Below are positions 41,910 through 50,951 of a DNA stretch of 64,000 nt, piece by piece (positions within the stretch are counted from its first letter, which is position 1; each line of letters begins with the position of its first letter). The notes under the pieces were generated by a model, which was not told the origin of the DNA, did no database searches, and saw only the letters and a program-made list of their open reading frames with translations. The stretch is taken from contig NZ_CP012600.1 in the NCBI RefSeq assembly GCF_001278705.1, positions 4,003,417 through 4,067,416 of the forward strand. The letters are read 5' to 3'. The stretch comes from Bacillus gobiensis (lineage in GTDB: Bacteria; Bacillota; Bacilli; Bacillales; Bacillaceae). The translations under genes were made by a program, and so were the position numbers.

Positions 41910-42077
41910 TGTATAATTAATTGAAGGAACTGTGCAAATTTGAAGTGTAATTGTTCAATTATTTAAAGAAACTGTTTAATTAATTAATGTACCTGTGCAA
42001 TTAGTTAGTTCAATTGTTCGATTAGTCAAAGGAACTGTGCAATTAAGGTACCCATCTGTGCAATTCGTTGAACTACG
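41910..42077. repeat. Array of eight 21-bp repeat units
   Basis: Motifs of the type TGTGCAATTA begin at 41910, 41931, 41952, 41973, 41994, 42015, 42036 and 42057, exactly 21 bp apart. Units 1 to 8 vary (for example TGTTCAATTA, TGTTTAATTA, TGTTCGATTA). The filler tends towards TTNAAGNAAC. The array lies between the AhpD-like gene and ulaA, in a short intergenic region. A second array with the same unit and period is at 49743-49889. Confidence 0.85.
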
Positions 42078-47072: not shown

Positions 47073-48827
47073 TTAAAAGGCACCAGATCCGCCTCCTCCT
47101 CCACCAACTCCGCCTCCTCCTCCACCAACTCCGCCTCCTCCGCTAAACCCGCCACCTGTATTGGATGAACCGGCTGCAGTGCTTGAGGCAGCTAATCCTG
47201 CTGAATGAAAGCTAGGAGATATTGAGGCTGTGAGAATCATAAGGGTGGTTATGTCAATCGAGTAAAAGCTTGGCTGAATGTCATTTGAACTGGCTCTATT
47301 ACTGGATCGATGAAAGGCGTTCTCAAGCTCTTCATGTTTTTTGTATAAGCTATTGTCTTTTATACCCATTCCGTAGATGAAAGAACGCAATCGCTCATCT
47401 TCCGTCCAAGTGCTCCACTCATTTTCAGTAAGATATGGGAAGTTATTTTTGAATCGATTCCACTTATAAAACGTTGCCGCTCCTTTTTCGCTTTTTGGTC
47501 GGTAAAAAATCGCATACCCGATCAAAAAGAGGAAAGTTGGCAATGAGAGAAAGAACAAGCCAAAAAGGTCATACAACGGAAATAAAAAGAGAAATGGCAA
47601 TAAGATTAAGCTCGATAAGCCGACAGTTGAACGATATATTGTATTTTTCTCGTAAAAAGCTTGGTCTTTGATTTCGTTCTTAACGGCATACTGCCATTTT
47701 GTCTGGTTGGAAAGGTATTTATTGTGATTTTTCTTCTGTTTTGTATACCTAGCCAGGTCATCTAAACTGAAAGTGCCGTTTTTCCCGATTTTGTCAAACA
47801 GCCATTCCATCAAAATTTCTTCGTGGCGTAAAGCGCCTTTTCGAGTAATAATTCGAAATTGATCGTCAGAAATGTTTTCAATATAGCCTTTGTGTAGCAA
47901 ATCCATCAATCCCGCTGCAACTGTATCTGAAGAAAATGCTCCTTTATTTGTATAAAAAATCGTTGCCGGTATGCTCATACTTTCTTCCGGAATCTTGTTT
48001 GATGTTGCCGCTTCTTCCTTCTCAAGCATTAGCTTTAAGTCTCTGCTTCGTTTCCAGGAATAAAGGAGGATTGCAAGTATAACGAGACCAAAAGCTGGGA
48101 TAAGTACTTCGCCGATAGTAGAAAGCTGCTTCTTCATCCTCGCATCTTCAGCAGCTTGATCTATCCCCTCCTGCTCAGCCGCCAGGATTTTCTCCTTCAT
48201 CGGCTTATTCGACATATTGGAAGCGGCAGAAAATAGCTTGTTGTCATAGGCGACTCGAATATCACCTTTTGTACCATCGGGAACCTCTTCAAAGGAAAAT
48301 TTGACGGATCCGTCCGGTTGAATCGCTTCTTTATTAAAAGCTTCATCATAGCCAAAAGCTATCACATCTTCTGTTGTTTTTTCGGGTGGATGAACTGTGA
48401 CCGTAAGATTTTCATAGGTTGATTCATTGTTATTATCGAAGAAAGGCCAATAAAACTCTGCTGCATCTGAATATACACTTACTCCATTCTTTATAGAGTA
48501 ATGAAGGTCGACAGAAATCGTTTCATAGCTGCCTGCTCGGTGAATTTTATAGGTATTTTCATCTTTTTCTGTTTTTAATGGTTTTCCGTTTTCATATGCT
48601 TTAAAATTTGAGATTTCCGTGCCTTTTTTGGCGATCAATTCTCTGGTGATCCCATTGAAATCATCGTCGAACTTATAAGTATGTGTCTCTTTAACATTAA
48701 CATCGCCATTTTTTTGCAAATCAGCTTGTATTTGAGTATTAGTAATGGAATAATCAATGGCAAAGGTAAGAACAGGAAAAAGTACTAGTGCAGCCGACAT
48801 GACAAGAATAGAAATCAATCGTTTCAT
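47073..48827 (-). CDS. DUF2207-family membrane protein with Gly-rich tail
   Basis: This 584-residue protein has a Sec signal (residues 1-23, ending LTFA), an extracellular DUF2207 beta domain (DYSITNTQIQADLQKNGDVNVKETHTYKF), one membrane helix near 240-260, a cytoplasmic part, and two more helices near 405-450. The C-terminus is a run of Gly and Ser (GGGFSGGGG, then repeated GGGGGV units), encoded by an imperfect 18-bp DNA repeat. This is the YciQ-type architecture; the function is unknown. ATG 48827 follows AGGTGATT. Confidence 0.87.
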   Translation of the reverse strand: MKRLISILVMSAALVLFPVLTFAIDYSITNTQIQADLQKNGDVNVKETHTYKFDDDFNGITRELIAKKGTEISNFKAYENGKPLKTEKDENTYKIHRAGSYETISVDLHYSIKNGVSVYSDAAEFYWPFFDNNNESTYENLTVTVHPPEKTTEDVIAFGYDEAFNKEAIQPDGSVKFSFEEVPDGTKGDIRVAYDNKLFSAASNMSNKPMKEKILAAEQEGIDQAAEDARMKKQLSTIGEVLIPAFGLVILAILLYSWKRSRDLKLMLEKEEAATSNKIPEESMSIPATIFYTNKGAFSSDTVAAGLMDLLHKGYIENISDDQFRIITRKGALRHEEILMEWLFDKIGKNGTFSLDDLARYTKQKKNHNKYLSNQTKWQYAVKNEIKDQAFYEKNTIYRSTVGLSSLILLPFLFLFPLYDLFGLFFLSLPTFLFLIGYAIFYRPKSEKGAATFYKWNRFKNNFPYLTENEWSTWTEDERLRSFIYGMGIKDNSLYKKHEELENAFHRSSNRASSNDIQPSFYSIDITTLMILTASISPSFHSAGLAASSTAAGSSNTGGGFSGGGGVGGGGGGVGGGGGGSGAF

Positions 48828-48953: not shown

Positions 48954-49727
48954 ATGGGGGACAACAATGCAACAAAGGATTATTGGGACGCAAGCTTATA
49001 TGATGGAAAACACGCCTTTGTTTCTAACTTTGGAAATGATGTAATCAAACTTTTAGACGCAAAAAAAGGTGAACGTATCCTTGACCTGGGATGCGGCACA
49101 GGGGATTTAGCACACTCGTTAACTGAGATGGGTGTGACAGTTGTCGGGTTTGATAAGTCGAAAAATATGATTGATCAAGCAAAGGCTAAGTATCCGAATA
49201 TTGTTTTTGGTGTTAGTGATGCAACAGAATTAGACTATCAAAATGAATTTGATGCGGTGTTTTCAAATGCTGTCCTTCATTGGGTTAAGCCTCCAAAGCA
49301 GGCGCTGCAATCAATCTATCAAACACTGAAGCCAAAAGGCAGATTTGTCGCTGAATTCGGCGGAAAAGGAAATGTTAAAATCATTACAGATGAAATTCTG
49401 AATCAATTTAAGAGCTATGAAATTAACTTTTCTGATGAGCAGTTCCCATGGTATTTTCCGAGTATTGGCCAATATTCAACATTGATGGAGGAAGTCGGGT
49501 TTAGAGTCATGCATGCACAGCACTTTGATCGTCCGACGCCGTTAGATGGGGAACACGGCTTAAGAAACTGGTTGGAAATGTTCAGCGGCGGGATGTTTGA
49601 AGGAATCTCAAACGAATTAAAAAATGAAATCTTCAACAAAATCGAAACCAACGTAAGAGAAACATTATATCTAGATGGCTGTTGGTTTGCTGATTATAAA
49701 AGGATCCGTGTCATTGGAGTGAAATAG
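48954..49727 (+). CDS. Class I SAM-dependent methyltransferase
   Basis: This 257-residue protein has the SAM motif ILDLGCGTGDLAHSL (about residues 42-56), the acidic residue after strand 2 in VVGFDKSKNMI, and the post-motif block FDAVFSNAVLHWVKPPKQAL. It is similar to trans-aconitate/malonyl-type small-molecule methyltransferases; the substrate is unknown. GGAGAG precedes ATG 48954. The second 21-bp repeat array starts 16 bp after its stop. Confidence 0.88.
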   Translation: MGDNNATKDYWDASLYDGKHAFVSNFGNDVIKLLDAKKGERILDLGCGTGDLAHSLTEMGVTVVGFDKSKNMIDQAKAKYPNIVFGVSDATELDYQNEFDAVFSNAVLHWVKPPKQALQSIYQTLKPKGRFVAEFGGKGNVKIITDEILNQFKSYEINFSDEQFPWYFPSIGQYSTLMEEVGFRVMHAQHFDRPTPLDGEHGLRNWLEMFSGGMFEGISNELKNEIFNKIETNVRETLYLDGCWFADYKRIRVIGVK

Positions 49728-49742
49728 AACGATGGGAGGAAT

Positions 49743-49889
49743 TGTGCAATTAATTAAGTCTTCTGTGCAATTATTAGCTATTACTGTGCAAAAATAGCGA
49801 CTACCTGTGCAATTATTGCAACAGTTTGTGCAAATAATCAATTGAACTGTGCAATTCCCACGCTTCATTGTGCAATTCCTATACGTTTT
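49743..49889. repeat. Second array of seven 21-bp repeat units
   Basis: TGTGCAATT or TGTGCAAAT-like motifs begin at 49743, 49764, 49785, 49806, 49827, 49848 and 49869, again exactly 21 bp apart. The seven-base start TGTGCAA is invariant here, and the 12-base filler varies freely. The array sits between two convergent genes (methyltransferase and dehydrogenase). On the minus strand the period of seven codons gives a repeated N-C-T-x4 pattern, but there is no credible start. Confidence 0.9.
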
Positions 49890-49892
49890 TCG

Positions 49893-49926
49893 CAAAAAAG
49901 GGCGACCCACACAACTCGTGAGCCGC
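49893..49926 (-). terminator. Terminator of the dehydrogenase gene
   Basis: On the minus strand GGCGGCTCAC pairs with GTGGGTCGCC (two G-T pairs), followed by CTTTTTTG. It lies just past the stop of the gene at 49940. Confidence 0.75.
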
Positions 49927-49939
49927 CATCACCATCTTC

Positions 49940-50812
49940 TCAGCTATTTTGTTCTTTCAATTCTAAAAAGATTGCTGATAAATCCAACTCGCCTTTTCCG
50001 TGTTCTTTAGCCGATCCGTAGGTTTGATCTGCAGCTTTAGTCAGCGGCAGGGAGGCGCCGTTTTTGTCTGCTTCTTTTAAGGCAAGACCCAAATCCTTCG
50101 ACATCAGCTTCAGCATGAACGCAGCAGGGAATTCTTCTTTCTCAAACAACTGTTTTTTGCCGGTAACGAGCGGGGTTCCTACCGCAGAGGCAAGGATCAT
50201 TTCTAGGGTGTTTTCTTTTTCAAGACCTAATTTTTCGGCAAGCAGCAAGGCTTCAGATGCTCCCTGCATCGTAATTCCCAGCAGCAAATTAATGACAAGC
50301 TTGGCTGAGGCGCCTTTTCCGTTTTCGCCGAAATGTACGGTCTTTTTGCCCAGTATATCAAAGATCGGCTGTACCTTCTGGATATCTTCTGCGTTTCCTC
50401 CCGGTAATATTACCAGTGTACCGTCTTCTGCAGGCTTCACAGATCCTGATACGGGTGCATCGATGAAAGCCGCCTCTTTTGTACGGACAAGCTCTGAAAA
50501 AAGTACCGAATCCTCAGGGCTGACTGTACTCATGTCGATAACGATTTTGCTGTGATCTAATCCAGCCAGGATTCCTTCTTCCTGTTCCATCACATCCTTA
50601 ACCGCAGCACCGTCCGTCAGCATTGTAATTATGACATCTGATTTTTCCGTCAGTTCCTGTGGTGTCTCGCATAGGATCGCGCCTTCGTCGGCCAAGCCTT
50701 GTGCTTTTTCTTTCGTCCGGTTGTACACATGCAAAGTGTAGCCGGCTTTGAGAACGTTTTTTGCCATCGGGGTTCCCATATATCCTAGTCCAATCCAACC
50801 GATTTTCAACAA
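49940..50812 (-). CDS. 3-hydroxyisobutyrate dehydrogenase-family oxidoreductase (YkwC-like)
   Basis: This 290-residue NAD(P)-dependent beta-hydroxyacid dehydrogenase has the Rossmann motif IGWIGLGYMGTPMAKNVL, the substrate motif FIDAPVSGSVKPAEDGTL (SGS region), and the catalytic lysine block GKGASAKLVINLLLG. The substrate (hydroxyisobutyrate, tartronate semialdehyde or other) cannot be told. I prefer TTG 50812 because AAAGGA lies 9 bases upstream; ATG 50821 overlaps the ribosome binding site. Confidence 0.88.
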   Translation of the reverse strand: MLKIGWIGLGYMGTPMAKNVLKAGYTLHVYNRTKEKAQGLADEGAILCETPQELTEKSDVIITMLTDGAAVKDVMEQEEGILAGLDHSKIVIDMSTVSPEDSVLFSELVRTKEAAFIDAPVSGSVKPAEDGTLVILPGGNAEDIQKVQPIFDILGKKTVHFGENGKGASAKLVINLLLGITMQGASEALLLAEKLGLEKENTLEMILASAVGTPLVTGKKQLFEKEEFPAAFMLKLMSKDLGLALKEADKNGASLPLTKAADQTYGSAKEHGKGELDLSAIFLELKEQNS

Positions 50813-50951
50813 TGCAATCATCCTTTCCGTAGTTATCTCTCTTTATTTTAACAAATACGTCTTTGCCAATGATACTTTGGTGATTTCATAGGAAACATCT
50901 CCTACTCTTATAAAATTCAATTTGTATATTCAGAGAAAATATGATATTTTT

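Follow-up and report, generated by a model that had tools for sequence, protein, structure and literature searches.

Intergenic arrays of a GTGCAA core repeated every 21 bp in Bacillus gobiensis and other Bacillales as possible docking platforms for a DNA-binding protein

The chromosome of Bacillus gobiensis carries about 26 arrays in which a conserved asymmetric core, GTGCAATTA, and a stretch of free filler form a unit that typically recurs every 21 bp, and arrays of this kind are present in many relatives. The best reading of these arrays, to which we assign a probability of roughly 0.4, is that each is a docking platform for several copies of a putative sequence-specific protein that binds double-stranded DNA, most likely in the service of chromosome organization. 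In descending order of likelihood, the arrays could also be selfishly spreading repeats, transcription insulators or RNA elements.

The window analyzed here is a stretch of 64,000 nucleotides of the B. gobiensis chromosome (contig NZ_CP012600.1, positions 4,003,417 to 4,067,416). On its plus strand, seven 21-bp units, each consisting of the word TGTGCAA and 14 nt of free sequence, fill the 147 bp from 49743 to 49889. All seven words, reported already in the initial annotation, are exact, 21 bp apart, and start at 49743, 49764, 49785, 49806, 49827, 49848 and 49869; the core GTGCAA is followed mostly by TTA, TTC or ATA. With independent bases of the window composition, the chance expectation for seven in-register copies of TGTGCAA on either strand is about 1e-24. 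Counted alone, the word shows no clear enrichment: the window has 15 copies compared with 9.84 +/- 3.28 in shuffled sequences, 8 of 100 shuffles reaching 15, so that the signal lies in the regular spacing. The array is recovered by our sequence-only model as the match G000:C1:4053159-4053228 (E 1.1e-12). A sister array at 41931..42077, also on the plus strand, includes model matches within G000:C1:4045331-4045479. The initial annotation assigned the same unit and period to both arrays, which holds for the seven units and the 21-bp register and has to be amended for the cores, three of which are changed in the sister array (TGTTCAA, TGTTTAA and TGTTCGA). Tandem Repeats Finder detects each of the two arrays in part only.

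The window array lies between convergent genes, as originally described. Upstream, on the motif strand, is a 257-aa ORF (48954..49727, plus strand; methyltransferase-like by eye), the stop codon of which is followed after 15 nt by the array, with no terminator predicted in between by the scan. Downstream is a 293-aa ORF on the minus strand (49940..50821), which by eye resembles NAD-binding 3-hydroxyacid dehydrogenases, and between this gene and the array (locus L223) lies its predicted intrinsic terminator (49894..49927, minus strand), a hairpin followed by a T run, with ends placed by eye. The window contains another 21-bp tandem repeat, CACCAACTCCGCCTCCTCCTC, at 47081-47141, which falls within the glycine-rich end of a 584-aa ORF (47073-48827, minus strand) and shows no tie to the arrays.

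Exact TGTGCAA-N14-TGTGCAA pairs occur 30 times in the B. gobiensis genome (a single contig of 4.6 Mb), compared with 0 for a reversed-pattern control; with two mismatches allowed, the numbers are 154 and 27. The model, for which 36 of 46 stretches with four cores were used (half of them, 18, from B. gobiensis itself), yields 67 matches in this genome at E<=0.1, which group into about 26 arrays, a count that omits four isolated matches with E of 0.01-0.07. Within the genus, exact pairs are found in 1 of 44 genomes, the other 43 having none, and within the family in 6 of 80, the five genomes besides B. gobiensis carrying one pair each. A DNA search with the window locus matches 13 of the remaining 43 congeneric genomes, over at most about 130 bp of one gene. 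At this locus B. gobiensis seems to stand far from the rest of its genus, and the lack of exact pairs in those 43 genomes therefore says little in favour of a recent gain. At the level of the order, the model matches 20 of 397 genomes and 10 of 135 genera (E<=1e-6, with stricter filters), and in a phylum sample, triple cores occur in 2 of 398 genomes. In the genus here denoted g9, 16 of 21 genomes have matches (E<=1e-5), and one of the genomes without matches is only 66% complete. A pattern scan of named genomes returned at least 120 loci; among those listed, 30 were taken as Bacillales, including Siminovitchia fortis, Bacillus pinisoli, Mesobacillus selenatarsenatis and Cytobacillus oceanisediminis as well as Terrilactibacillus, Rummeliibacillus, Ureibacillus and Filobacillus. 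The other 90 listed loci are not counted as the same family because 39 of them lie under ORFs of at least 150 aa and many are near-perfect tandem repeats. Two further loci, L381 and L382, in contigs classed as viral, have a triple core with 21-bp spacing. In the open-licence PMC literature, the titles and abstract openings among the matches listed for TGTGCAA, GTGCAA, GTGCAATTA, TAATTGCAC, 21-bp Bacillus repeats and intergenic repeats contain no description of this family. The proposal that the window array belongs to an interspersed family of a recognized site, and is not a tandem duplication, is supported: the genome-wide scan returned about 26 arrays, not just the two in the window, and relatives carry them as well.

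The architecture of the arrays is tightly constrained in some respects and free in others. Sequence logos from four lineages have GTGCAA in common, in most cases with TT behind it, and differ between lineages at the edges. The core spans 6-9 bp and the filler 12-15 nt. Across 82 arrays from six genomes, successive cores are spaced by 21 bp in 449 cases, 20 bp in 27, 22 bp in none, 42 bp in 13 and 41 bp in one, with 20-bp and 22-bp steps penalised equally by the chain finder; loci with too low a best-chain score were dropped from this set (7 of 26 in B. gobiensis, 0 of 13 in G582, 0 of 8 in G746, 4 of 17 in G705, 5 of 19 in G520 and 2 of 13 in G712). One 22-bp step occurs in an array outside this count (L228). 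Multiples of the 20-21 bp spacing appear where a core is lost. A distance of 21 bp corresponds to two turns of B-DNA, and asymmetric cores placed at two helix turns and separated by free filler point to a protein that reads double-stranded DNA on one face.

In three of the four lineages studied, the number of units has a peak characteristic of the lineage: 10 of 20 B. gobiensis arrays have seven units (range 4-15), 11 of 14 G520 arrays have five, and 31 of 36 arrays from three g9 genomes have five or six. The fourth lineage, G712, is variable, with 6 to 27 units in homogenised arrays. A lineage-typical copy number suggests a complex of defined size. The 36 g9 arrays are preceded by a leader with a logo of about TTTTTCCAnAATTAGGATGA, and many of the five-unit arrays in this genus end in a trailer like GTAAGAGAATAATTTTTCCAG. 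Exact copies of a trailer pattern number 12 in G582, G705 and G746, every one of them next to an array, and 7 in G471, where 5 adjoin an array; in B. gobiensis and G520, it is represented by one-mismatch matches only, at the control level. A constant total of 147 bp for leader, units and trailer in all lineages was considered and rejected: it fits many B. gobiensis and g9 arrays, and no such end units are seen in G520.

Several arrays depart from the common form. Those at L318-L330 (G712), L062, L063, L112 and L163 (Rummeliibacillus), L075 (Filobacillus) and L096 (Ureibacillus) have the 21-bp period and the GTGCAA core with fillers that are more alike, and some of these are long, the G712 arrays reaching 27 units. 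In L218 and L212 of B. gobiensis, two filler types alternate in a 41-42 bp super-repeat, as if the arrays had grown by two units at a time.

Comparison of orthologous arrays shows which part of the unit is retained. In 12 g9 pairs from 11 loci (66 unit pairs), with orthology assigned from neighbours and sequence and with equal numbers of units, mismatches amount to 4.8% in the core, 10.6% in the adjoining TTA and 38.4% in the filler; the core figure is partly ascertained, given that the cores served to find the arrays and the comparison is confined to pairs of equal length. One locus (L289), followed through eight g9 genomes, gives a less biased view: four retain the array (one with 4 units), in two it has decayed, and the remaining two have none, with 20-30 nt in place of about 220-270. 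Single arrays may, then, be dispensable. In one decayed ortholog of L289 (L383, in G823), GGGCAA replaces GTGCAA in three of five cores.

The arrays are located behind genes. A simple ORF rule assigned both neighbours for 80 arrays, of which 35 lie between codirectional genes in the sense orientation, 15 between codirectional genes in the antisense orientation, 27 between convergent genes and 3 between divergent genes; with one g9 genome only, the respective counts are 23, 11, 22 and 2. The sense lean is significant (35 vs 15, p 0.007), and the scarcity of divergent compared with convergent settings agrees with the initial judgement that a promoter role is unlikely. Where an array follows a gene on the same strand, the median distance from the stop codon is 68 nt, and 44 of 62 arrays start within 100 nt. 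In 53 arrays located within 250 nt of a stop codon and scanned on the strand of the gene, a terminator is predicted before the array in 23, only after it in 7, and in neither position in 23, the window array being among the latter; the scan misses some terminators, such as the hairpin and T run seen by eye behind the L289 array. A position behind gene ends, and past many predicted terminators, argues against a general role in mRNA. The neighbouring genes themselves provide no clue to a binding protein: the 52 ORFs flanking the 26 B. gobiensis arrays, inspected by eye over their first 60 residues, look unrelated to one another, and none looks like a Cas, replication or partition gene.

The arrays also lean towards the origin of replication. 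In B. gobiensis, with an origin at about 3.45 Mb and a terminus at about 1.3 Mb by GC skew (20 samples), the half of the chromosome around the origin contains 19 of 26 arrays (binomial p 0.029; Kolmogorov-Smirnov p 0.02-0.09, depending on the assumed origin). Stronger leans are seen in G705 (16 of 18) and G746 (8 of 9), where both contigs begin with a DnaA-like gene, in G582 (11 of 13), with a DnaA-like gene near 4.46 Mb, and, among the matches listed and with rounded genome lengths, in G855 (13 of 14) and G858 (7 of 8). G863 was omitted: with base 1 as origin it would give 13 of 15, and its contig does not start at a DnaA-like gene. For g9, DnaA-like genes were recognised by eye and the terminus was assumed to lie opposite the origin, the skew of G705 and G746 suggesting a terminus somewhat past the midpoint. 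These are raw counts, with gene content not controlled, the lean is weakest, and modest, in B. gobiensis, and g9 counts are not independent because loci are common to several species. Enrichment of sites towards the origin is a mark of anchoring sites of the ram and RBM type and is found in the arrays. This lean favours chromosome organization and does not favour a role in replication termination.

Taken as docking platforms, the arrays would work as follows. The cores would be read by a protein, not by RNA, each core seating one protein molecule, and copies of the putative protein would line up next to each other along the same helix face. The bound molecules would jointly form a stiff or wrapped nucleoprotein patch. 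With less confidence, we infer that such patches organise the chromosome through anchoring, compaction or positioning of its origin-side half; by analogy, they may act like the dispersed RacA and RefZ sites of Bacillus subtilis, with a different site design.

Two alternatives accept that the cores bind a protein and differ in what it would do. The arrays could be a selfish or near-neutral repeat, a non-autonomous element copied between gene ends, where it is least harmful, with the cores binding the enzyme that moves or expands it. We regard this as unlikely. In its favour are the common leader of g9 arrays and the trailer of many of them, TTTTTCCA-like sequence near both ends, the presence, decay and absence of an array at one locus, and the few arrays between divergent genes. 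Two pairs of arrays also have fillers of comparatively high raw identity, namely L214 and L225 of B. gobiensis (2.696 and 4.166 Mb), with 60% filler identity over 60 in-register positions compared with 30% between arrays generally, which may be an old copy, and L299 and L302 of G520, with 73-74%. Yet cores and spacing persist in equal-length orthologs while the filler drifts by 38%, a pattern that a dead element would not show, and BLAST with one g9 array as query finds no match in plasmid and phage collections, the pattern scan of viral contigs giving 2. Alternatively, tandem-bound protein could act as a transcription insulator or roadblock that halts RNA polymerase reading through past gene ends, above all between convergent genes. 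The 27 convergent against 3 divergent settings, the short distances behind same-strand stop codons and the 23 of 53 arrays with no predicted terminator on either side, that of the window included, fit such a function. However, for an equal number, 23 of 53, a terminator is already predicted ahead of the array, 15 of the 50 codirectional arrays face against both genes, and the origin lean is left unexplained. We consider this role quite unlikely.

The other two alternatives place the function in RNA or protein. It is improbable that the array acts once transcribed, as part of 3' untranslated regions in which its several UGUGCAAUUA words would be recognised by a small RNA or an RNA-binding protein: the sense lean, the 7 of 53 arrays with a predicted terminator only behind them, and the hairpin with a T run behind L289 would suit it, but 23 of 53 arrays lie past a predicted terminator, and it is hard to see why sites in single-stranded RNA should be spaced by 21 nt. 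Nor do the RNA-level searches lend it support. In 550 distinct units, no stacked complementary positions surround the core (best z overall 2.4), the best single complementary pair occurring in g9 only (z 3.9 among 225 tested); the fold of the window array is ordinary on both strands (z -1.07 and +0.64), and no Rfam family matches the window at gathering scores. The same 550 units led us to discard an RNA hairpin around the core, an idea prompted by GAATTGTGCAATTC-like palindromes and by one array, L210 of B. gobiensis (1.900 Mb), in which neighbouring fillers are complementary (AACTGTGG/CCACAGTT). Finally, it is very improbable that the arrays encode a heptad protein in the minus-strand reading, N-C-T-x4, that the initial annotation had pointed out. 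An open 79-aa ORF does span the window array, the base before the core, silent in this frame, varies, and the frame is open more often than expected from shuffled filler in all four groups (6 of 14 vs 3.7 in B. gobiensis, 17 of 32 vs 12.8 in g9, 12 of 14 vs 4.2 in G520 and 4 of 8 vs 1.7 in G712). The other two silent sites, core positions 3 and 6, are nevertheless 94-100% constant, and column shuffles, which retain unit composition, remove the excess in g9 (15 of 29 vs 16.6), render it not significant in B. gobiensis (5 of 11 vs 3.5, p 0.21) and leave it borderline in G520 (11 of 13 vs 8.1, p 0.05) and G712 (4 of 6 vs 2.0, p 0.06). Under column shuffles, a second frame in G520 is likewise borderline (8 of 13 open vs 5.0, p 0.047), and another G712 frame is open in 5 of 6 arrays vs 2.0, a value reached in 0 of 300 shuffles.

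The docking reading can be set against known repeat systems, none of which matches the arrays in full. Plasmid iteron and centromere arrays consist of direct repeats of about 20 bp that place sites on one helix face and allow cooperative binding. The arrays share the repeat length, cooperative binding being a feature of the plasmid systems, and differ in occupying many chromosomal loci per genome, with none of the 52 neighbouring ORFs replication- or partition-like by eye. The REP/BIME elements of enterobacteria are likewise present in many intergenic copies behind gene ends, but their palindromic units form hairpins, a pattern not seen in the 550 units or in the folds of the window array. CRISPR repeats exceed 20 bp and have longer spacers, unlike a core of 6-9 bp with 12-15 nt of filler. 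The STAR elements of Staphylococcus are comparable in that they are dispersed through intergenic regions as direct repeats of a short conserved motif, with locus-distinct spacers, local expansion and contraction, and no described function (PMC3532100). Their motif, however, is 14 bp long and GC-rich, T(G/A/T)TGTTG(G/T)GGCCC(C/A), with at least 40 bp between copies (PMC3532100), in contrast to a 6-9 bp GTGCAA core every 20-21 bp, and it is the arrays that combine a lineage-typical copy number with an origin-side lean. TAACTGA repeats, described for Beggiatoaceae, cyanobacteria and Bacteroidetes, are also intergenic heptamers in direct repetition, two to six copies forming a set in the main genome studied, with a patchy distribution over distant lineages; in that genome, most are found just upstream of start codons and are interpreted as possible translational control, and a binding factor is proposed (PMC4679880). 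The heptamer is a different one, and the arrays lie behind gene ends. In B. subtilis, the ram sites of RacA are densest near the origin, and the RBM sites of RefZ are five nearly palindromic motifs that keep their position relative to oriC (PMC6593407, PMC6657595). Like the arrays, these are dispersed short sites, with protein binding known for ram and RBM and putative here; unlike RBM, the arrays are phased, asymmetric direct repeats.

A more specific version of the docking reading is tentative and, on balance, doubtful: the arrays could represent a new kind of dispersed anchoring site in Bacillales, in which asymmetric sites are repeated five, six or seven times, once every two helix turns, and a putative reader builds a patch of defined size at gene ends of the origin-side half, by a centromere-like code that lineages rewrite. 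Interspersed repeats such as STAR have long been known, with no function described. The present family comes with firm constraints: the core is asymmetric, the units are helically phased, the copy number is typical of the lineage, sister species carry orthologous arrays, and one genus includes species with detected arrays and species without them. Together, these features make the idea of a role in chromosome organization directly testable.
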